64,000 nt of DNA. Origin: Candidatus Methanohalarchaeum thermophilum (lineage in GTDB: Archaea > Halobacteriota > Methanonatronarchaeia > Methanonatronarchaeales > Methanonatronarchaeaceae). Below the pieces are notes generated by a model. That model had not been told where the DNA came from and made no database searches. It worked only from the letters and a program-made list of their open reading frames with translations. Positions within the stretch are counted from its first letter, which is position 1. Each line of letters begins with the position of its first letter. Made by a program: the position numbers and the translations under genes. Positions 1,552 through 63,414 of the stretch are shown here, piece after piece. The stretch spans positions 124,001 through 188,000 of the forward strand of contig MSDW01000001.1 of NCBI GenBank assembly GCA_001914405.1, in the 5' to 3' direction.

Positions 1552-1959
1552 TTTATAGAGTTGGAGGCAGAAAACCCGTGTCCTTCAAGAGCACGGGATG
1601 AATGCCTTCAACAACACTTAAATGATTTTGGAACCAAGTTAAGCTTTGGCAGTTAGGCGTTCTGCCTCATCAAACAAACTCAGGCCACTTCTCTGTCCAT
1701 TGGCCAAAAAAATCCCTTGGTAAGCCCGAAACACTTGGAGTAGGGGTTCTAGTGGTTGGTGTGGAGCAGCCGCTGAGGAATAAGAGGAACCCTCATTGGG
1801 TTGGTATATGGGCTTTGTGCCCTAATCCAGTTCTTCCCTCAAAGCGCAAGTTCCCTTGCTGACTGGGTGTATGAGACAAGCCCAGTAGATAAGGCAGACT
1901 CCAACTTGGATAAGGCCTCACAAGGAAACTCACTCCCTTTAGGAAGTGAGTTACTTCAC
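1552..1959 (+). mobile_element. Family-1 IS200/IS605-like non-coding element, copy A
   Basis: This 408 bp non-coding element begins after a TTTAT motif with GAGTTGGAGGCAG and a left-end hairpin (ACCCGTGTCC/GAGCACGGGA followed by TGAATGCC). It ends in a right-end hairpin (ACTCACTCC/GGAAGTGAGT) followed by TACTTCAC. The core holds the family-1 conserved blocks: GGCAGTT, AAGCCCGAAAC, GTGTGGAGCAGCCG, GAATAAGAGGAACC, TATATGGG and CCTAATCCAGT. One hairpin has stem CTGGG/CCCAG around the loop TGTATGAGACAAG (1863-1885). It is enclosed by GTTCCCTTG (1850-1858) pairing with CAAGGAAAC (1921-1929). The right end is 43 bp upstream of the ACT-domain gene. An open frame across the element is not conserved in other copies and is not counted as a gene. 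Confidence 0.75.
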
Positions 1960-4978: not shown

Positions 4979-5039
4979 GTGACTTCCTCACCTACCTAAA
5001 ATCAGAGATTTGAGGAAGGGGGTTTCTCACCAAATAAGT
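4979..5039 (-). repeat. Solo left end of an IS200/IS605-like element
   Basis: A single left-end module in minus orientation. Read on the minus strand it is ACTTATTTGGTGAGAAACC, then a hairpin formed by CCTCAAATC / GATTTTAGGTAGG with loop TCT, then GAGGAAGTCAC. It has no core or right end attached and lies head-to-head with element B. It could be a minimal palindrome-only (PATE-like) element or the residue of a deletion. Confidence 0.55.
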
Positions 5040-5042
5040 TAG

Positions 5043-5550
5043 ATTATCTTTTGTGGATTTGTAAGAGAGTAGTACAGACCGGTTTCTTTAGGACGGGGAT
5101 ATACGGACTTCTCTTACACAGAATAATTTAACTCCAGCACTTAAATAGTTCTAAGAGGTATTTAGGGTAACTGGCAGTTGGTTGGATTTGTCTGCCCTAT
5201 CAAAAAGCGATTCCACGGCCTTTGAGGTATTCTGGCTAAGTTAAAGGCCCCGAAACTCTACATCGAATAGGTGTATTTGGGTAAACTCGAAAAATCTAGG
5301 AGTAGGGTCGTAGTGGGTGGTGTAGAAGGTACCGCAGGAGAATAAGCAGGAACCATCCTAAAAGTTAGGTTAATATATGGGTTCTTGTATCTGTCCTAAT
5401 CCAATTCTTTTCCCATGGAGCAAATAGTTCCAGGTGTTGATTTAGGTGCATGAGAAAAGCTCCCGGATGGAAAAAAGCAAACTCCAATCCAGATAAGGCT
5501 CACATGGAAGCTCCTTCTTAAGTCTCTGATTTAGGTAGGGGTCACTTCAC
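5043..5550 (+). mobile_element. Family-1 IS200/IS605-like non-coding element, copy B
   Basis: The element starts at the family left-end motif TTATCTTTTGTGG. Its first hairpin is unusual: a long arm TGTAAGAGA...TCTCTTACA (about 5070-5122) replaces the normal short palindrome. The family core follows (ACTCCAGCACTTAAATAG, GGCAGTTGGTTGG, AAAAAGCGATTCC, TATATGGG, CCTAATCCAATTC). It ends with a CTTAAGTCTCTGATTTAGG hairpin and GGTCACTTCAC. The TGCATGAGAAAAG loop is conserved although its stem is weaker than in other copies. No coding potential is seen. Confidence 0.7.
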
Positions 5551-5686
5551 TAATAAATAAAAGTGATAAAATTAAGTAATATCTATCAAAATGCCACCTA
5601 CTTTTTTATTTCTTCATTGCTTGGTTTCATTTTGTTTTTAAAATAAAAGGAGATTAAAGTATTTTTGTTGGTTTAGTTTAAAGCAT

Positions 5687-6664
5687 TTATCTGGTTCCTA
5701 GCCAAGGGTTGTGTCCGCCTTGGTGGCATGTGTAGCATCTTGGGAATCTATCAGTGTGTGCTGATTGATGGCAGCTTTGGCATGAAGGAGAGTATCCAGT
5801 GTGTATTGCGGTGTGGCATTCTACGCAATTTATTTCAGAGTGAGCCATCCCCTTTTCTTCCAAATTCTTTGATTCTTCACTATGGCAAGTAATGCAGTCT
5901 TGGTTCGTTAATTGAGCGGGCTTTGGATTATGTGCTCCTCTATGGCAGTCATAGCATCTTGCTAGGTTGTTTCCATGTTTATTGCCGTGGCATTCTTGGC
6001 AATTAGGCATATAGGCATGTTTTTCTTCAGTATCATGACAAGCAATGCATTCAAGGTTCTTATGTGCATCTCCCTCTTGTTTTATTAATTTGACTGCTTC
6101 CTCGTTACCATGGCATTCGTTACATTGTTCATTTGTTAGGTTTTGTATATTAGATTCTGAATGGCATCTTGAGCAGCTTTTTGAAGTAGAGTGGCTTGAA
6201 TGTACTATTGTGTAGTTATTAGATTGGTGGCATTTACTGCAATTTGTTACCTCTTCCCTCTTGTGGACACCGACTGCACCTCCATCGTGGCATTGGTAAC
6301 AGTCTTCTAAATGAAATTCACTATGGGCCTCAAGATTACTTTTTTGATGGCATTCCACGCAATCAGCCTCATCTTCTCTGGCCAAATCGTGTACTGGCCC
6401 GGGATTAGGATGGCATTCCCTGCAGTTAATGTCGCCAAATTGTGGGTGATGAAGAGAATCTAGTTCTTCCTTTCGCGGCTTATCAATAAAGGAAAAATAT
6501 TTTTCAAATAAATTTTTTATGTCATCAAAGAAAGTACTGGATCTTACTTCCAATTTTTCTACATTTAATTCGTTTTCAGTATCCTTTGGCTGAGCTATTA
6601 ATGTTGAGGATGCTATAAGCATTAGGGAGATAGTTAAGATTAATGTTAATTCTTTTTTATTCAT
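5687..6664 (-). CDS. Thirteen-heme c-type cytochrome, exported
   Basis: The 325-residue protein has thirteen CxxCH heme-attachment motifs spread from about residue 81 (CRECH) to about 313 (CYTCH). They include CVECH, CYQCH, CSKCH, CSRCH, CNECH, CIACH, CQECH, CYDCH, CITCH, CVECH and CQSCH. Additional free histidines could serve as distal heme ligands. The N-terminus (KKELTLILTISLMLIASSTLIAQ) is a signal peptide or anchor, so the hemes should lie outside the cytoplasmic membrane. Its start overlaps the small membrane protein gene by 4 bp, and that gene overlaps the cytochrome b gene, giving one operon. The arrangement suggests electrons pass from a membrane carrier through cytochrome b to this periplasmic or surface multiheme protein. 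The acceptor is unknown. Confidence 0.9.
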   Translation of the reverse strand: MNKKELTLILTISLMLIASSTLIAQPKDTENELNVEKLEVRSSTFFDDIKNLFEKYFSFIDKPRKEELDSLHHPQFGDINCRECHPNPGPVHDLAREDEADCVECHQKSNLEAHSEFHLEDCYQCHDGGAVGVHKREEVTNCSKCHQSNNYTIVHSSHSTSKSCSRCHSESNIQNLTNEQCNECHGNEEAVKLIKQEGDAHKNLECIACHDTEEKHAYMPNCQECHGNKHGNNLARCYDCHRGAHNPKPAQLTNQDCITCHSEESKNLEEKGMAHSEINCVECHTAIHTGYSPSCQSCHQSAHTDRFPRCYTCHQGGHNPWLGTR

Positions 6665-6849
6665 AATCTTTCCTCCCTCCTTCCCCGTAGATTATAGAAA
6701 GATATTCCTGTTATTATTAAGGCTATGTAAATTAAAGTTAATATTATTGAAGGATTAAATAAGTGGAAACCCATTAAATATAAAACAAACGGGCCATAGA
6801 CAATTAAAGATAATAAAAGTGCTATAACTTGTTTATAGGGGATATTCAT
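6661..6849 (-). CDS. Small two-helix membrane protein of the cytochrome operon
   Basis: This 62-residue protein has two predicted transmembrane helices (about 8-28 and 33-52) and a basic C-terminus (NLRGRREERL). I do not recognise a family. It overlaps the upstream cytochrome b gene and the downstream multiheme cytochrome gene by 4 bp each, so translation is probably coupled. A role as a small subunit or assembly factor of the cytochrome complex is inferred from position only. Confidence 0.6.
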   Translation of the reverse strand: MNIPYKQVIALLLSLIVYGPFVLYLMGFHLFNPSIILTLIYIALIITGISFYNLRGRREERL

Positions 6850-7799
6850 TCATTTTCCTCCTTTATTGACTCAAACCACTTCGGGTGCTCTTTTTTGGCA
6901 TCTTTTTCGGACATTTTCCCATCCATAATTTGGGATCCGTAAGGAAGAGCCTCACTATTGAAGTGAACGTGGTAGAAGTGAAGCATTATCGCTGCAGAAG
7001 CTGCAATTGCATCTATGCTATGTAATACTTCAGCTCCCAGAACCACTCCTAGGGGCATTATCTCCAAAGAAAAGTTGATATTCCACATTATCAAGCCCGT
7101 TATTATTAAGATCGGATAAAAGATTATTGCACCCCAATAATCGAATTTCTCCCTCCATCCATATTTCCCTAGTCTTATTTCATTATCTGTTATCCCTAAT
7201 GCGTATCCAATTTCCTTAAACCCCTGTTTTAGGTCATCTAACTTCGGTAGCATCTCCATAGGGAATTGTTCAACTGCAATATACCAGATTGCATGATATA
7301 TAGAGACAGCTATAACCCCTAAAGCAAATATTTTATGAATTTGCCAGAGGTTAGGTAACCCTCCTACTAGGTCAGGTATCCATGGAAAATAGTGATAAAA
7401 TTTCATTCCCAAACCAGTTATTAATAAAATCCCAGTAGAAACTGCCATCACTCCATGTTCAAATACCTGGGGCAAAGAAAACCTCTCCACATAGCTATCT
7501 TCACTTAATTTTTCGACAGATTCGGATTCGGATTCAGCTCTTTCCTCTCTAAGAAAACTCCTCGCTTTATATAACAGACCAAGTAAAAGGAATAGCCCCA
7601 TAATTGGTATTCCTAAATATTCGATCAGCATAGCCACTTGATAAAAAACATACCTCTGTATTTCTACTTCAGGAGTAAAACCTGGGGATATAGGCAGCGC
7701 CAATAAATTAGATGGACCAACTACTATTTTAATTAACAAAATTACGATTAATAACGAAATCCCCCAACTAACTACGGCAAGTTGGTTTTTCTTATTAAT
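6846..7799 (-). CDS. Diheme cytochrome b membrane subunit (FdnI/PhsC/CbcL-like), probable AUU start
   Basis: The protein resembles the b-type cytochromes that anchor formate dehydrogenases, thiosulfate reductases and CbcL-type quinol oxidases. Candidate heme-ligand histidines are in FEHGVMAVSTGILL, in IHKIFALGVIAVSIYHAIWY and in EVLHSIDAIAA...MLHFYHVHF. The first conventional start (TTG at 7739) has no ribosome binding site. Upstream in the same frame an ATT codon at 7799 sits 5 nt behind AGGAGGT and adds 20 residues that complete a transmembrane helix. I therefore place the start at 7799 (317 residues). It is the first gene of the operon with the small membrane protein and the 13-heme cytochrome, and probably takes electrons from a membrane carrier such as methanophenazine or a quinone. 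Confidence 0.8.
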   Translation of the reverse strand: MNKKNQLAVVSWGISLLIVILLIKIVVGPSNLLALPISPGFTPEVEIQRYVFYQVAMLIEYLGIPIMGLFLLLGLLYKARSFLREERAESESESVEKLSEDSYVERFSLPQVFEHGVMAVSTGILLITGLGMKFYHYFPWIPDLVGGLPNLWQIHKIFALGVIAVSIYHAIWYIAVEQFPMEMLPKLDDLKQGFKEIGYALGITDNEIRLGKYGWREKFDYWGAIIFYPILIITGLIMWNINFSLEIMPLGVVLGAEVLHSIDAIAASAAIMLHFYHVHFNSEALPYGSQIMDGKMSEKDAKKEHPKWFESIKEENE

Positions 7800-7893
7800 A
7801 TTTACCTCCTCCTTAATTCAAAAGACATATTACAGGCGCATACCATCCAGCAAACTCAAATGCTTCATTCAATTTATTTAATTACTAATCTAT

Positions 7894-11849: not shown

Positions 11850-12250
11850 GTGACCTCCTCACCTACCTAATCAAAGATCTAAGAAGGTGCTTCCACCTAT
11901 TTGGAGTCCTCCAGGTCCAAGGCTCATAGCTCCCTACCAGGGGGTGTATGCCGAGCACGACTCAGCTCTAGTTAGCAGGTTACAAAAACTTAAACTGTTT
12001 TCCCAGAACATCACCTATATCCATCACTATCATATACCCCGGTCACTGGGACCCCATTCCGAGGTCTTCCACGTACCCCTTTGCGGAAGAACCTAAATAC
12101 CCGAGGAACTCGGCTACTCAAACTCAGCCCATAGGCCTCAGAACCCCTCAACAAAAACCTATTCGATTCCCAAATACAAACATCATAGTACCGATTCACC
12201 CTCCCTACCTAAATCAAAGATCTAGGAAAAGGGATTTCTCATCAAATAAT
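11850..12250 (-). mobile_element. Family-2 IS200/IS605-like non-coding element, copy J
   Basis: About 400 bp, bounded on the minus strand by a left-end hairpin (CCTAGATCTTTGATTTAGG, then GGGTGAATCGG) and a right-end hairpin (CTTAGATCTTTGATTAGG, then GAGGAGGTCAC). The core differs from family 1 but is shared with copy K. Blocks include GGGAATCGAATAGG, GAGGCCTATGGGCTGAGTT, CTCGGGTATTTAGG, TTCTTCCGCAAAGGG, GGAAGAC, CCAGTGACCGGGG and GCTCGGCATACACCCCCTGG. Short open frames across it are not conserved as protein. Confidence 0.65.
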
Positions 12251-12265
12251 ATTAAATTTTACATT

Positions 12266-14274: not shown

Positions 14275-14638
14275 ATCTATAGTAGAGGGAGGGAGGGAAC
14301 CTCACGGCTTGGCGTGAGGGTGAATCCCGTTAAACTTAAATAATTATATTACTAAGTATCTTTTAATTCCAAAGGTGGGCTTTTTGGGGTGCTTTACATG
14401 TTCCACCTTTCAAGAAATCGAGAGGTTGGGAGGGGGTGGCGTCGGGTAGTGTGAAGCTACAGAGAACTTGTAACAGCACCTAGATATGCAGGGTCGATCA
14501 AATTACCCTGCCAACTATGCAGGATGGTTTCGTCCGAAGCGTAGGTTCTCTGCTGACCGGGGTGAATGAGAGAAGCCCTGTGGGAAGGCAGAATTATTCG
14601 CAGAGAACCCCCACAGCTTTGCTGTGAGGTCACTTCAC
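14275..14638 (+). mobile_element. Family-1 IS200/IS605-like element, copy G (GC-richer subfamily)
   Basis: 364 bp. The left end is TCTATAGTAGAGGGAGG with hairpin CCTCACGGC/GCGTGAGG and then GTGAATCCC; the right end is hairpin CCCACAGC/GCTGTGAGG and then TCACTTCAC. The core is diverged from A-F in sequence but keeps the same helices. GGTTCTCTGC (14544-14553) pairs with GCAGAGAACC (14600-14609), enclosing CGGGG/CCCTG around the loop TGAATGAGAGAAG. An inverted sister copy (H) lies at 59.5 kb. The element ends 45 bp before the HAD-protein start. Confidence 0.75.
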
Positions 14639-19253: not shown

Positions 19254-21005
19254 GTGACAGATATCTATGATAAAATAACTGAGATCTCCAAAAGAAGAGG
19301 GTTTTTCTGGCCATCATTTGACATATATGGGTCAGCCTCTGGTTTCTATGACTACGGTCCCCTAGGAACCAAACTAATTAAAAACATAAAGTCAAAATGG
19401 AGAGATTATTACATAAACAAAGAAAGCTTCGATGAGATTATATCCACAACTATTATGTCCGAAGATGTATTCAGGGCATCAGGACATCTTGATGGATTTG
19501 AAGATGCAATGACAGAGTGTAACAATTGTAATAAGTCATTTAGAGCTGATCACTTAGTAGAAGATTTTACAGAAGAACAAGCCGATAGTTTATCCAACCA
19601 AAAAATATACGAATTAATTAAAGAAAATGAAGTTTCCTGCCCTGCATGTGGAGGAGAACTAGGAGAAGTTTATAACTTCAACCTAATGTTTAAAACATCA
19701 ATAGGCCCTGGAACAGGAAGAAACGGTTACTTAAGGCCAGAAACAGCACAAGGAATGTTTGTGGATTTCCCATACCTACAGGACACAAATAGAGGAAAAC
19801 TTCCTTTTGGAGTCGTACAAATCGGAAGAGCTTACAGAAACGAAATATCCCCAAGACAAGGTGTAATAAGATTAAGAGAATTCCTCCAAATGGAAGCCGA
19901 AGTATTTGTAAAACCGGGCGAAAAAAACCATCCTTCCTTTAGTAAAGTAAAAGACGAAAAAGTTAAACTTTATTCCATAGACCAACAGGAAGAAAAAGAA
20001 GGAAAACCTCAAAAGATCAAACTAGAAGAAGCTCTTAAATCAGGATTAATTGGAAGCGAAATCCTAGCTTATTACATTGGGTTAACTAAAAAATTCCTAT
20101 TAGATCTAGGTATTGATCAGAGTAAACTCAGATTCAGACAGCATCTAGACGAAGAAAGAGCTCATTATGCAGAAGATTGCTGGGATGCAGAAGCCAAATC
20201 AGATAGATTTGGTTGGATAGAACTAGCCGGAATCTCAGATAGAACAAACTATGACCTAAAAAAACATGGTAAAAATTCAAATCAAGATCTGAGGGCCTTT
20301 GATAAGTATAAAGAACCCAAAAAGATCGAAAAGAAAGTAATTTCTCCTAATATGGATAAATTAGGCCCTAAGTTCAAAGACAAATCTAAGAAAATTGCCG
20401 AATCATTAAAGGACATAAGACCTGAAAAAATGGAAAAACTTCTAGATAAAGAAAAATTTGAGATAGAAATAGACGGAGAGAAATTTAAATTAGATGACAG
20501 GTATGTTGAAGTGGAAAAAAAGATCGAAAAAAGAAGTGGGGAGAGATTCTATCCTCATGTCATCGAGCCATCTTATGGCTTGGACAGAATAACCTATATC
20601 ACTATTGAACATTCATATGACGAAGATGTTTTAGATGAAGAAAAAAGAAAAGTAATAAGATTCAACAAAATAGTTTCTCCAATTGACGTAGCAGTTTTTC
20701 CTTTAATAGAAGATAAAAAACTATTAAATAAGTCACAAAAAGTAATTGATTCCTTAGATAATGAATTAAATACAGTTTACGATGAATCAGGATCAATAGG
20801 AAGAAGATATCGACGACAAGATGAAATTGGAACACCCTACTGTATAACAATCGATCATCAAACAATTGAAGACAACACCGTAACAATTAGAGAAAGAGAT
20901 TCAACAGACCAAATTAGAGTTAAAATATCCGATATCAACACCACAATAAATAAACTAACTAAAAACAAAGTCAAGTTCAACGAATTGACATCCTCACCTA
21001 CCTAA
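19254..21005 (+). CDS. glyS: Glycyl-tRNA synthetase (alpha2 type)
   Basis: This class II synthetase charges tRNA-Gly. Family features are the N-terminal [14 protein letters not shown] with YDYGPLG, a CNNC...CPAC metal-binding insertion, motif 2 around [22 protein letters not shown] and motif 3 in [13 protein letters not shown]. An anticodon-binding domain completes it. It starts at GTG behind AGGAGG. The last eight residues (NELTSSPT) and the stop codon come from the right end of element K, which has inserted at the gene's 3' end. The anticodon domain itself looks complete. Confidence 0.95.
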
Positions 21006-21404
21006 ATCAGAGATTTAGGGAGGTGCTTCCACCTATTTGGAGTGCTTCTGGTTTCGAGGCTCATAGTTTCTATCAGGGGGTGTATGCCGAGCACGTCTTG
21101 GCTCTAGTTAGCAGGTTCCAAGGACTTAAACTGTTTTCCCAGGACAAGCCCCTATGTCCATCGCTATCATGTGCCCTGGTTACGGGCCCCGGTCCGGTCA
21201 CTGGGACCCCATACCGAGGTCTTCCACATATCCCTTTGCGGAAGAACCTAAATACCCGAGGAATTCGGCTACTCGAACTCAGCCCATAGGCCTCAGAACC
21301 TCTCAACAAAAACCTATTCGATTCCCAAATACAGATATCTAGTGCTGATTCATCCTCCCTACCTAAATCAGAGACTTAGGAAGGGAATTTCTCATCAAAT
21401 AAGT
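20984..21404 (-). mobile_element. Family-2 IS200/IS605-like non-coding element, copy K
   Basis: About 420 bp, closely similar to element J over its whole core. Minus-strand left end: CTTATTTGATGAGAAATTCC, palindrome CTAAGTC/GATTTAGGTAGG, then GAGGATGAATCAGC. The right end is the palindrome CCTAAATCTCTGATTTAGG, then TGAGGATGTCAA, a terminus it shares with the tnpB pseudogene at 45.9 kb. The right end lies inside the last codons of glyS and supplies its stop. Confidence 0.7.
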
Positions 21405-21441: not shown

Positions 21442-25305
<3,864 letters not shown>

Positions 25306-30517: not shown

Positions 30518-30973
30518 GTTATATGGTTAAAGGCAGGAAACCTGTGTCCTTTAGGGCACGAGATGAATGCTTTTTTTTGGAAGGAAAATAACACTTAATT
30601 GATTTTAGGAACTAGCTAGAGGTAACTGACAGTTGGTTGGCTTGATTTCCCTATCAAAAAGCGAACCCATGTTTCTTAGGTATCTGGCTAATCGCCCTGT
30701 GACCAACCAACATCGAATAGTTGTATTGGATAAGCCTGAAACTTTTGGAATAAGGAGTGTTGGTTGTGTGGAGCAGCTTGTAGGAATAATAAGGGGAGTT
30801 ATTGCATAGCTAATATATGGACTTTTGTTTTGGCCCTAATCCAAGTCTTCCCAGGGAACTCAAGTTCCCTAGTTGATTGGTTGAACAAGAAAAGCCCAAT
30901 AACAAGTCAAACTCTACTCAGATGAATTTCACAGGAAAGCTCAATTCATTTATTTAGGAGGTGAGTCACTTTA
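30518..30973 (+). mobile_element. Family-1 IS200/IS605-like non-coding element, copy C
   Basis: 456 bp. The left end GTTATATGGTTAAAGGCAGG with hairpin ACCTGTGTCC/GGGCACGAGAT then GAATGC resembles copy A. The core keeps GGTAACTGACAGTTGG, AAAAAGCGA, AAGCCTGAAAC, GTGTGGAGCAGC, TAATATATGG and CCCTAATCC. The diagnostic hairpin here is ATTGG/CCAAT around TTGAACAAGAAAAG (30876-30900). It ends with GAGTCACTTTAC, one base different from the usual terminus. Element L begins about 20 bp further on. Confidence 0.7.
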
Positions 30974-30994
30974 CTCCTGTTGATAACAATTTAA

Positions 30995-31313
30995 TTTATC
31001 TTGGTGGTTAAGAAGACCTCTTCCTTATCTTTTGATTAGGGAGGGGATGAATCAACCTATAAGGCTTAAATGACCTCCGTGTCTTAGGTTTTGTGTGTAG
31101 GGCAGGGGTTGTGGCCGAAGGCTAAAGCCCGTGGACAGATTGAGAGTTCTGGTTACCAAGCTCGCTGGCTTGGGCCAGGGAACCTCCCCATAGAAAGCTT
31201 CCTAGATAAGCGCCGCCCAGGACTGAGATTGGATGACAGCAGTAGGAAGAAAACCCCTTTGACTCTGGAAGCCCCCTCCAAAATCCCTTGATTTTGGTAA
31301 GGGAGGAAGTCAC
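30995..31313 (+). mobile_element. Family-3 IS200/IS605-like element, copy L
   Basis: 319 bp, starting TTTATCTTGGTGGTTAAGAAG with the family left-end hairpin and GATGAATCAACC. It ends with palindrome CAAAATCCCTTGATTTTG and GGGAGGAAGTCAC. The GC-rich core is nearly identical to element M but unrelated in primary sequence to families 1 and 2. A 66-codon open frame (31091-31291) runs in the transposon direction and stops in the right-end hairpin, ending LEAPSKIP. Many tnpB genes end this way, so it may be a tnpB 3' remnant overlapping an omega-RNA. This is suggestive only. Confidence 0.65.
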
Positions 31314-47715: not shown

Positions 47716-48189
47716 TTTATCTATTCATTGGAGAAGGCCCTCTTCTTTTCTTTGATAGGTAGGGGATGAATTCGATGTTTTTTAAAATAAAAAACTAATA
47801 TTGTGTTAATGGCAGTTGGTTGGTTTGTCTGCCTCTTGAACAAAAAGCAATCCCATGCCCTTAAGGCAATGGCTAAATCCTCAGACTCTACATCGAATAG
47901 GTGTATTAGGTAAGTAAGTAAGTATTGGGATAGGTGGGTAAGCCCGAAACAGCTTGGGAGTAGGGAGTCTAGTGGTAGGTGTGGAGCAACCATTGAGAAA
48001 TAAGAGGAGCCATTGTGTAGCTAATATATGGCGTAGTTGCCTAATCCAGTTCTTCCTCAAAGCAATAGTTCCCTGTTGATCAAGTGTATGAGAGAAGCTT
48101 GGTGAAAAACAAACTCCATTCAGGATAAGGTCACAGGGAAGCCCTCTTCCTCACCGAACGGATGTGAGGTTAGGCAGGGGTCACTTCAC
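47716..48189 (+). mobile_element. Family-1 IS200/IS605-like non-coding element, copy D
   Basis: 474 bp, nearly identical (a handful of differences) to copy E 3.4 kb away, which fixes the boundaries. Upstream identity stops at TTTATCTATTCATTGG, and downstream it stops after GGTCACTTCAC. The core has all conserved blocks. CAAG/CTTG pairs around TGTATGAGAGAAG (48081-48101), inside TTCCCTGT (48069-48076) paired with ACAGGGAA (48133-48140). The right-end hairpin is CCTCACC/GTGAGG with loop GAACGGAT. An IS5-type element follows 33 bp later. Confidence 0.8.
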
Positions 48190-51108: not shown

Positions 51109-51580
51109 TTTATCTATTCATTGGAGAAGGCCCTCTTCTTTTCTTTGATAGGTAGGGGATGAATTCGATGTTTTTTAAAATAAAAAACTAATATTGTGTT
51201 AATGGCAGTTGGTTGGTTTGTCTGCCTCTTGAACAAAAAGCAATCCCATGCCCTTAAGGCAATGGCTAAAGCCTCAGACTCTACATCGAGAGGTGTATAG
51301 GTAAGTAAGTAAGTATTGGGATAGGTGGGTAAGCCCGAAACAGCTTGGGAGTAGGGAGTCTAGTGATAGGTGTGGAGCAACCATTGAGAAATAAGAGGAG
51401 CCATTGTGTAGCTAATATATGGCGTAGTTGCCTAATCCAGTTCTTCCTCAAAGCAATAGTTCCCTGTTGATCAAGTGTATGAGAGAAGCTTGGTGAAAAA
51501 CAAACTCCATTCAGGATAAGGTCACAGGGAAGCCCTCTTCCTCACCGAACGGATGTGAGGTTAGGCAGGGGTCACTTCAC
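51109..51580 (+). mobile_element. Family-1 IS200/IS605-like non-coding element, copy E
   Basis: 472 bp, the near-identical sister of copy D in direct orientation. The same left end (TTTATCTATTCATTGGAG), core helices and right end (CCTCACC/GTGAGG hairpin then GGTCACTTCAC) are present. Differences include loss of a few bases around CATCGA(ATA)GGTGTA. The right terminus overlaps the 3' end of thiDN: the gene's TGA stop is the complement of TCA within TTCAC, so the element defines where that protein ends. Confidence 0.8.
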
Positions 51581-55763: not shown

Positions 55764-56087
55764 GTGGCTTCCTCCCTTACCAAAATCAAGGGATTTTGGA
55801 GGGGGCTTCCAGAGTCAAAGGGGTTTTCTTCCTACTGCTGTCATCCAATCTCAGTCCTGGGCGGCGCTTATCTAGGAAGCTTTCTATGGGGAGGTTCCCT
55901 GGCCCAAGCCAGCGAGCTTGGTAACCAGAATTCTCAATCTGTCCACGGGCTTTTGGCTTCGGCCACAAACCCTGCCTAGCTTACACCAAAACCTAAGACA
56001 CGGAGGTCATTTAAGCCTTATAGGTTGATTCATCTCGCTACCAAAATCAAGAGATTAGGAGGGGGTCTTCTCAACCACCAAGATAAA
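55764..56087 (-). mobile_element. Family-3 IS200/IS605-like element, copy M
   Basis: 324 bp, inverted and nearly identical to element L at 31 kb. The minus-strand left end is TTTATCTTGGTGGTTGAG with palindrome CTAATCTCTTGATTTTGG and GATGAATCAACC. The right end is CAAAATCCCTTGATTTTG then GGGAGGAAGCCAC. The open frame seen in L is also present here (ending LEAPSKIP) with two early substitutions. The preceding 55,556-55,763 stretch is AT-rich with nothing identifiable. Confidence 0.65.
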
Positions 56088-56122
56088 AATTTAATGGTTT
56101 TGCAAATCATTTAAATGTTAAT

Positions 56123-57987: not shown

Positions 57988-58158
57988 TTATGTTCACCAA
58001 AAAATCAAATTTAGAGGCATAAAACTCCTTTATAGGTAATTAACTACATTAGATGTTTTTATATATTTAAAATTTTATTAATCGATCAAAAATTATTTTT
58101 AATATAATTAAATTGTTTAGATAATCACTTTTCATCAAATGATGGAGTTAATGCTGTA

Positions 58159-58607
58159 GTGAAGTGAGCTCCACCTAAATCAAAGATTAGGAGTTCTCTG
58201 TGGCCCTTATCTCGGGTGAGAGTTTGCTTTATTCGTTGAGCTTGTCTCATTCACTCAATCAACAGGGAACTATTGCTCTGAGTGAAGATTGGATTAGGGC
58301 AAAAACAGAACCAATGTATTAACTCTTAGGGTGGTTCCGCTTATTCTTCTCTTGTAACTCCATGCTACCACTAGCCCCTACTTCAGAGCTGTTTCGGACT
58401 TACATCATACATTTTATTCGATATTAGAGTCTGAGGCTTCAGCCAGTTCTCTCAAAAATAATGAGATTGCTTTTTGTTGAGTCAGACTCCCAATCAACTG
58501 CCAATTAAATTCTAATTGTTATTGAAAATCACTTAACTATTGTGGTTGATTCATCATCCTATCTAATCAGAGACTTAGGAGGAGCTCTTCTCAACCTAAA
58601 ATATAAA
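58159..58607 (-). mobile_element. Family-1 IS200/IS605-like non-coding element, copy I
   Basis: 449 bp on the minus strand. The left end is TTTATATTTTAGGTTGAGAAG with palindrome CCTAAGTCTCTGATTAGATAGG and GATGAATCAACC; the right end is palindrome CCTAATCTTTGATTTAGG then CTCACTTCAC. The core hairpin is TTGAG/CTCAA around TGAATGAGACAAG (58236-58258), enclosed by GTTCCCTGT pairing with ACAGAGAAC. The same block order as in A-F is clear on the reverse strand (GGCAGTTGATTGG, AAGTCCGAAAC, GTAGTATGGAG-like, CCCTAATCCAATC). Confidence 0.75.
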
Positions 58608-58685
58608 ATTTATGGCTTCAAAAGACATTTTAACTTAAAAACATATAAGACGATAATTATGGATAGAGATCTAGGAATCCTTTAA

Positions 58686-59479: not shown

Positions 59480-59843
59480 GTGAAGTGACCCCATAGCAAG
59501 CTGTGGGGTTTCTCTGCGGGCGATTCTGCCTTCCCATTGGGCTTCCTCATTCACCCCGGTCAGCAGGGAACTTACGCTTCGGACGGAACCATCCTGCATA
59601 GGTGGTAGGTTAGTTTTGGTTGCCCCTGCATATCTAGGGGCTGTTATAGATCCTCTGTAGCTTCACACTACTCGACGCCACCTCATCTCAACCTAACGGT
59701 TTCTTGAGAGGTGGAACATGTAAAGCACCCCAAAAAGGGTCACTTTTGGAATTAAAAGATACTTAGTAGTAGTATTATTTAAGTCTAACGGAATTCACCC
59801 CCACAGCAAGCCGTGAGGTTCTCTCCCTCACTCTACTATAGAT
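59480..59843 (-). mobile_element. Family-1 IS200/IS605-like element, copy H (sister of G)
   Basis: 364 bp, the same subfamily as copy G but in opposite orientation. The minus-strand left end is TCTATAGTAGAGTGAGGGAG with hairpin CTCACGGC/GCTGTGGG and GTGAATTCC; the right end is hairpin CCCACAGC/GCTATGGGG and then TCACTTCAC. The core keeps the CGGGG...CCC hairpin around a slightly shortened TGAATGAGGAAG loop. At its left end it joins the tnpB start relic, so it has landed in or replaced the body of a tnpB element. Confidence 0.75.
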
Positions 59844-62595: not shown

Positions 62596-62997
62596 TATCA
62601 TTTTGTGTTGGTGGTTGTAAGGGTTAAGTTATGTGGTCAGGGATTTGGTTCTTTGCCTATAGAGCTTTCTTTATCTTTTTATAGGATTAAAGAAACATGA
62701 TATAACCTCATAATCTCGTAGTAGTTTCTAAGTGTAATTATAAGATTTAATGGGTTTACAAGATGTAATGAATTGTTTTTTCTTTTTTTATATTTTATTG
62801 GTTTAATGCTTTTTTAAATTATTTTTTAGGGGTGTAGGATATAATCCCTGGAGTTTAATTGATAAGGATGTGGTTGATAGGGAGAACTCTTTGGGATCTG
62901 GTTGGAGTATTTATATTTTTTGTTTCAAGCTGTAGAGAGATTAATGGCCTAATAGGGGAAATAAGGTTTTTTCCTTTTTTTAGTTCTATTTAGTTTT
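62596..62997. other. Gene-free interval between marR and element F
   Basis: About 400 bp of T-rich sequence on the top strand. No gene, tRNA or element end was recognised. It contains long T runs (for example near 62,780-62,830) that would act as transcription terminators for anything reading rightward. Confidence 0.3.
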
Positions 62998-63414
62998 TTT
63001 ATCTAAATGGTTGGGAAGACTCCTTTCTAAATCTGTGGTTTAGGTAGGTGATGAATCAGCTGTAACACTTTACTTAGCTCCAGTATTAACTAGGGGTAAT
63101 GGGCAGTTGGTTGGGGGTCTGCCTTGAACAAAAAGCGATCCTATCTATAAAAATCTCTGGGTAAGCCTGAAACGGTTCTGGAGTAGGGGGGTCTAGCGGT
63201 AGGTGTGGAGCAACCGAAAGTGAATAAGAGGAACCATCTAGGGTTAGTATATGGGAACTGTTCCCTAAGTCCAGACTTCACTTGGAGCAATAGTTCCCTG
63301 TTGACGGTGTGGATGAGACAAGCACCGTGGAAAACAAACTCCTCTTTGGATAAGGTCACAGGGAAGCCCTCTTCCTCACCGAACGGATGTGAGGTTAGGC
63401 AGGGGTCACTTCAC
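62998..63414 (+). mobile_element. Family-1 IS200/IS605-like non-coding element, copy F
   Basis: 417 bp and the cleanest single copy. Left end: TTTATCTAAATGGTTGGGAAG, palindrome CTAAATCTGTGGTTTAGG, TGATGAATCAGC. The core follows with ACTCCAG-like TAGCTCCAG, GGGCAGTTGGTTGG, AAAAAGCGATCC, AAGCCTGAAAC, GTGTGGAGCAACCG, GAATAAGAGGAACC and TATATGGG. The right end is CCTCACC/GTGAGG, then GGTCACTTCAC, 41 bp before the ABC-2 permease stop. Confidence 0.8.
63095..63414 (+). ncRNA. Candidate structured RNA core of family-1 elements (best copy)
   Basis: Core helices in this copy: TTCCCTGT (63294-63301) pairs with ACAGGGAA (63358-63365). Inside, CGGTG/CACCG closes the loop TGGATGAGACAAG (63305-63327). The terminal hairpin is CCTCACC/GTGAGG. 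In other copies both strands of these stems change together while the loop stays TGNATGAGANAAG, which is evidence of selection on RNA structure. Whether it is transcribed is unknown. Confidence 0.55.

Follow-up and report, generated by a model that had tools for sequence, protein, structure and literature searches.

Three genes lie on the minus strand at positions 5687-7799 of a 64,000-base stretch of DNA (hereafter the window), which corresponds to bases 124001-188000 of contig C1 in a 2.14 Mb genome of four contigs, estimated to be ~95% complete. By inspection of the open reading frames they run in the order cytochrome b gene (6846-7799, 317 aa), a gene for a 62-aa protein (6661-6849) and a gene for a 325-aa multihaem cytochrome c (5687-6664). 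Adjacent genes share four bases (ATGA) at each junction, which confirms the three overlapping genes of the original prediction, and all three starts follow a Shine-Dalgarno site of the GGAGG type. Codon use in the operon resembles that of the neighbouring genes, so composition gives no sign of a recent transfer.

The cytochrome b frame probably begins with an ATT codon at 7799, for which inspection of the sequence finds the Shine-Dalgarno site GGAGGAGGT (7804-7812, minus strand). No ATG, GTG or well-placed TTG was found in the start region. The next standard codon is a TTG at 7739. Starting there would cost the protein part of its first helix, and no Shine-Dalgarno site precedes it, so I consider ATT the better call; with no conventional codon in place, annotation pipelines may shorten the protein to 7739.

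This first protein belongs to Pfam family PF01292 (E=6e-16; 59.2 bits against a gathering score of 30.1), and an alignment of 40 sequences shows its candidate haem ligands, H115, H155, H260 and H274, to be invariant. At intervals of 40 and 14 residues, they are presumably spaced nearly as in the FdnI ligand pairs. The nearest solved chain by sequence is Escherichia coli FdnI (1kqf_C, E=4e-12), which is also the best fold match of the predicted structure (mean pLDDT 71; E=3e-6, TM 0.75 on the target), while residues ~1-100 form an N-terminal extension of two extra helices. Judged by the four histidines and the predicted fold, the protein is a member of the FdnI-type dihaem superfamily, in agreement with the membrane dihaem cytochrome b originally proposed. 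It does not qualify as a formate dehydrogenase gamma subunit: its score of 70.9 bits against the equivalog model TIGR01583 is below the cut-off of 115.85, the operon contains no fdh gene, and the formate dehydrogenase cluster of this genome lies elsewhere.

The 325-aa protein carries 13 CxxCH motifs (window 5723-6424) and 16 further histidines. In 2000 shuffles of its sequence the mean number of CxxCH motifs was 0.16 and the maximum 3. Elsewhere in the window, none of the stop-to-stop frames of at least 60 aa contains even one. PF14537 and PF14522 both score above cut-off, and the N-terminus, on which alone I judge export, is signal-peptide-like; the protein thus classifies as a multihaem cytochrome c (at least three CxxCH, exported), and the exported cytochrome with 13 haem sites stands as predicted. 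Its AlphaFold model (pLDDT 38) is too poor to use, and the matches of residues 175-204 to RSV fusion glycoprotein entries in the PDB (best E 8e-5) are short and unrelated. The 62-aa protein between the two cytochromes has the two hydrophobic segments that were claimed for it and no family match, which makes it a candidate membrane partner; its similarity to the small transmembrane proteins of comparable clusters is not significant, and the likeness is one of position only. Taken as a unit, the operon is well supported as a real and intact b-c electron-transfer module.

A copy of a dispersed repeat sits directly downstream of the 13-haem gene. Such repeats, ~200-470 bases long and of several families, fill intergenic spaces of the window (1552-1959, 4979-5555, 11850-12257, 14275-14638, 20986-21402, 30592-31313, 47716-48189, 51109-51580, 55764-56099, 58157-58610, 59480-59843 and 62997-63414) and have more copies elsewhere in the genome. 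One pair is 98.9% identical, the others 66-93%, and none has a match in Rfam. Separately, the gene for the large subunit of DNA polymerase D (21442-25305) looks split by an in-frame intein-like insert that runs approximately from CFHPDTKIVV to ILANNIFVGQC.

The host genome

I examined the host genome family by family. It encodes McrA (E=5e-64), and the mcr cluster is followed by hdrE and hdrD; these genes, together with those for Mer, CofC, CofG and CofH in the window, bear out the view that the host is a probable methanogen. The original prediction also drew on the F420/Mer neighbourhood of the operon. Those genes are real, but they lie 26 kb away and say nothing about the operon itself; it is the mcr genes of the genome that do. 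The host is probably a methane-producing archaeon of salt lakes. Its mcr and hdrDE genes, the lack of Mtr and published work on the class point to 'Ca. Methanohalarchaeum' (Methanonatronarchaeaceae) as its probable identity. The window gives no usable reading on whether the proteome is acidic, as in salt-in halophiles: the median pI of its open reading frames is 5.8, a value that is uninformative because overlapping non-genes are included.

The membrane chain is completed by a hydrogenase that has a cytochrome b subunit, by a formate dehydrogenase to which a separate FdnI-like cytochrome b belongs, and by two aldehyde-oxidoreductase-like clusters that also include cytochromes b. No match to RnfD/E (PF03116) and no MtrA were found in it, in searches in which the positive controls, Methanosarcina acetivorans and the archaeal genome G191, both scored. 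Lacking MtrA, the host cannot use the usual route for methyl-group oxidation.

Absence of cytochrome maturation genes had been named as grounds for giving up the prediction, and that ground falls away. The genome holds CcmB with an adjacent CcmA-type ABC ATPase, CcmC, CcmE and a CcmF split into separate N- and C-terminal genes, which lie on opposite strands ~1 kb apart (split CcmF and CcmE at L005:5352-6278, L005:7326-8408 and L006:7369-7749). CcmE has the CxxxY motif and ends in CKENY. This near-complete set corresponds to the archaeal variant of system I for cytochrome c maturation, which comprises CcmA, CcmB, CcmC, CcmF and a CxxxY-bearing CcmE, and it is adjoined by genes of haem-biosynthesis type, identified by reading of their sequences only.

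A scan of the host genome for CxxCH found two multihaem cytochromes among the 100 of 102 places listed. The second is a 493-aa protein (L004:9264-10745; ~479.3-480.7 kb of C1) with six CxxCH motifs and a C-terminal hydrophobic tail that starts with PGF, and it is possible that this is a surface-anchored partner, the next station after the 13-haem protein. A Tat-signal protein of the C_GCAxxG_C_C family (L007:7627-8469) has two CxxCH near its C-terminus.

G001, a genome from the same family and another genus, contains no match to McrA or MtrA (it is 93% complete) and no close copy of the window cytochrome b, its best match being a paralogue of the aldehyde-oxidoreductase type. The same 66 bases, lying within a multihaem gene, occur at two of its contig ends (L083:1-1503 and L082:1-567); joined, these ends suggest a ~25-haem cytochrome preceded by a 69-aa two-helix protein.

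Relatives of the module

In a scan of named genomes, which may leave out records near the host's own genome, relatives of the window cytochrome b were all bacterial (Chloroflexota/Dehalococcoidia and Deferribacterota, 24-32% identity), and they adjoin 6- or 7-haem cytochromes. The closest relative comes from G191 and G241, two Mcr-bearing genomes of Halobacteriota family f30 that I infer to be ANME-2a/b-like. There, a 133-aa two-helix protein is followed by a 228-aa cytochrome b, and, taken in series, the two match the window protein over its full length (30% identity, 54% positives). Since parts that are separate genes in G191 and G241 form one chain in the window, the window gene looks like a fusion. 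G191 also has a 13-haem cytochrome, 4.4 kb upstream on the same contig with ileS and another gene between, whereas in the window the 13-haem gene belongs to the operon. The two 13-haem proteins are 30% identical over 244 aa; this is the weaker part of the comparison, because Cys- and His-rich cytochromes inflate scores. In the comparison with methanotrophic archaea that had been proposed, the closest set is that of the ANME-2-like G191 and G241, with a homologous 13-haem cytochrome.

A tree of 40 cytochromes b places the window protein outside the formate dehydrogenase and aldehyde-oxidoreductase paralogues of its own genome and outside the clade linked to Rnf. A branch with support of 92/86 joins it with the orphan pair of family f30, multihaem-linked clades (including the 6-haem-linked cytochromes b of Methanoperedenaceae), an archaeal hydrogenase-linked clade and one formate-dehydrogenase-linked sequence. 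The window protein has a long branch and the tree does not fix its exact place within this group, also after the other long branch is dropped; nor does the tree back a pairing with just the f30 orphans (59/0).

Of the described systems, that of Methanoperedenaceae comes near in layout. Like the window, it has an FdnI-like cytochrome b directly beside a multihaem cytochrome, and such pairs were read as putative menaquinone:cytochrome c oxidoreductases (PMC7327174). I find the same arrangement in Methanoperedens-like genomes (family f36) and in G389, where a 6-haem cytochrome lies directly upstream of the related cytochrome b. The Methanoperedenaceae cytochrome, however, has six haems and two transmembrane segments and is encoded upstream, whereas that of the window has 13 haems, is encoded downstream and comes with a separate small transmembrane protein. 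Mco of ANME-2a/b resembles the window in placing a multihaem cytochrome after a membrane cytochrome b, and in its proposed job, but combines a VhtC-type cytochrome b with 7-11 haems (PMC9012536) where the window has an FdnI-type protein and 13. The adjacency of the two genes that marks Mco is found here too, with the 62-aa gene between them. Model scores exclude an Mco/VhtC identity: the window cytochrome b reaches 12.3 bits with the hydrogenase cytochrome b model TIGR02125, as against its score with the formate dehydrogenase gamma model.

Nearly the same gene order (two-helix part and cytochrome b, small transmembrane protein, multihaem cytochrome) occurs in the Rnf-associated module of ANME (PMC9012536), which has a cytochrome b of a different clade from that of the window and an MmcA-family cytochrome, a type that the window module lacks; the missing RnfD/E match in the host rules out an Rnf-linked identity. 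In family f30, Rnf operons (L131:6047-9141, L143:5829-8566 and L144:4336-7108) are preceded by a two-helix part with cytochrome b, a small transmembrane protein and a cytochrome with 6-8 CxxCH; the two-helix part is fused to cytochrome b in some of these genomes and split from it in others. G191 itself carries Rnf with an MmcA-family cytochrome. MmcA of Methanosarcina is, like the window protein, a multihaem cytochrome outside a methanogen membrane, but it has seven haems and is linked to Rnf. The 13-haem protein is not an MmcA, as it has no match to TIGR04314 at E<=1, against 393 bits for an f30 Rnf-linked cytochrome.

CbcL of Geobacter sulfurreducens, the model for the original prediction, is a single fused b-c chain. 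Here b and c are separate genes, which by description sets the window module apart from CbcL. What holds of that comparison is the b-c module itself, for which CbcL is a fair functional analogy, since there too a cytochrome b in the membrane is connected with a multihaem c (PMC9012536). What does not hold is the family, given the FdnI-type cytochrome b and nearest relatives that are split-chain modules of archaea and bacteria.

Direction of electron flow

What might this operon do? I consider it somewhat probable that it encodes an oxidoreductase between a membrane carrier, probably methanophenazine, and a multihaem cytochrome c, with export of electrons somewhat favoured because of the roles proposed for its relatives. 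The FdnI-type cytochrome b would trade electrons with a methanophenazine pool common to the hydrogenase, the formate dehydrogenase and HdrDE. Through its two haems the electrons would reach the outer face, where the 13-haem cytochrome c, possibly held in a complex by the 62-aa two-helix protein, would act as a short wire toward the cell surface, continued perhaps by the membrane-anchored six-CxxCH cytochrome encoded elsewhere. In the somewhat favoured direction, electrons from H2 or formate would reach an acceptor or partner outside the cell. Some points weigh on the other side. Besides the long branch of the window cytochrome b, its tree group also contains hydrogenase-linked cytochromes b and one linked to formate dehydrogenase, so a multihaem partner is not the sole option for the clade; and export in particular would call for an outside acceptor, in a host that lacks Mtr.

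The same conduit could also run inward, the 13-haem cytochrome taking electrons from a partner cell, a mineral or a reduced shuttle, and cytochrome b reducing methanophenazine to feed HdrDE and hence methyl reduction, as a substitute for H2 or formate. FdnI-type subunits of formate dehydrogenase do supply the carrier with electrons that come from the outer face, and because the host lacks MtrA, and with it the usual route to electrons from methyl groups, I treat uptake as a serious alternative, though an unlikely one. In the sister genus the donor has to be H2 or formate (PMC5852551). M. acetivorans depends on MmcA to take up electrons in DIET (PMC8546582), and MmcA is also able to reduce a phenazine (PMC11024163), so traffic through multihaem cytochromes can go either way. 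Against uptake, related modules of ANME, of Methanoperedens-like archaea and of metal reducers are read as serving export (PMC9012536, PMC7327174), and some Methanosarcinales take up electrons without multihaem cytochromes, according to PMC6962339.

Both directions assume exchange with the outside. The pair might instead tie the carrier pool to an unlinked extramembrane enzyme, or store charge, with nothing leaving or entering the cell. Most FdnI-type cytochromes b do serve enzymes, and two multihaem cytochromes (among the 100 of 102 places listed) are few for a lifestyle built on extracellular electrons. Yet the operon has no enzyme gene, the other FdnI-like proteins of the host are already paired with enzymes of their own, and 13 haems exceed what an enzyme relay usually needs, which leaves this a rather improbable account. 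That the operon is a relic, or so seldom used that it has no present function, strikes me as very improbable: the ATT start is unusual and the sister-genus genome G001 lacks a close copy of the cytochrome b, but reading frames, haem sites, ligand residues and ribosome-binding sites are all intact, codon use is that of the neighbours, and the maturation system has been kept.

Significance for methanogens

Separate-chain sets of cytochrome b and multihaem cytochrome have been described in ANME, Methanoperedens and metal-reducing lineages, so the module is of a known kind, and what is unusual is its host. The operon may already be mentioned in the original description of the genome or of the class. 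Within methanogens, b- and c-type cytochromes were said to be limited to Methanosarcinales (PMC4429474), and clustered genes of the Mco type for cytochrome b and multihaem cytochrome were not found in any methanogenic archaeon (PMC9012536). One Methanonatronarchaeales genome was reported to have CcmCF and no haem c motif (PMC8351635). For a 'Ca. Methanohalarchaeum thermophilum' cytochrome b, possibly but not necessarily the window protein, the closest counterpart was reported from a Methanoperedenaceae genome (PMC7327174). The locus is a counter-example to these published limits, in an mcr-bearing genome of what is apparently another lineage, and it adds a set of cytochrome b, small membrane protein and secreted multihaem cytochrome rarely described in methanogens outside the Methanosarcina group.

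For extracellular electron exchange in methyl-reducing methanogens the module offers a concrete candidate that can be tested, and beside the ANME conduits it stands as a minimal relative that does without Rnf. More tentatively, and with the balance still tipped against it, a methyl-reducing methanogen of the Methanonatronarchaeia that has neither Mtr nor Rnf might be electrically wired, its b/13-haem conduit taking up or dumping electrons at the methanophenazine pool. If so, a partner cell or an electrode could drive methyl reduction in place of H2.
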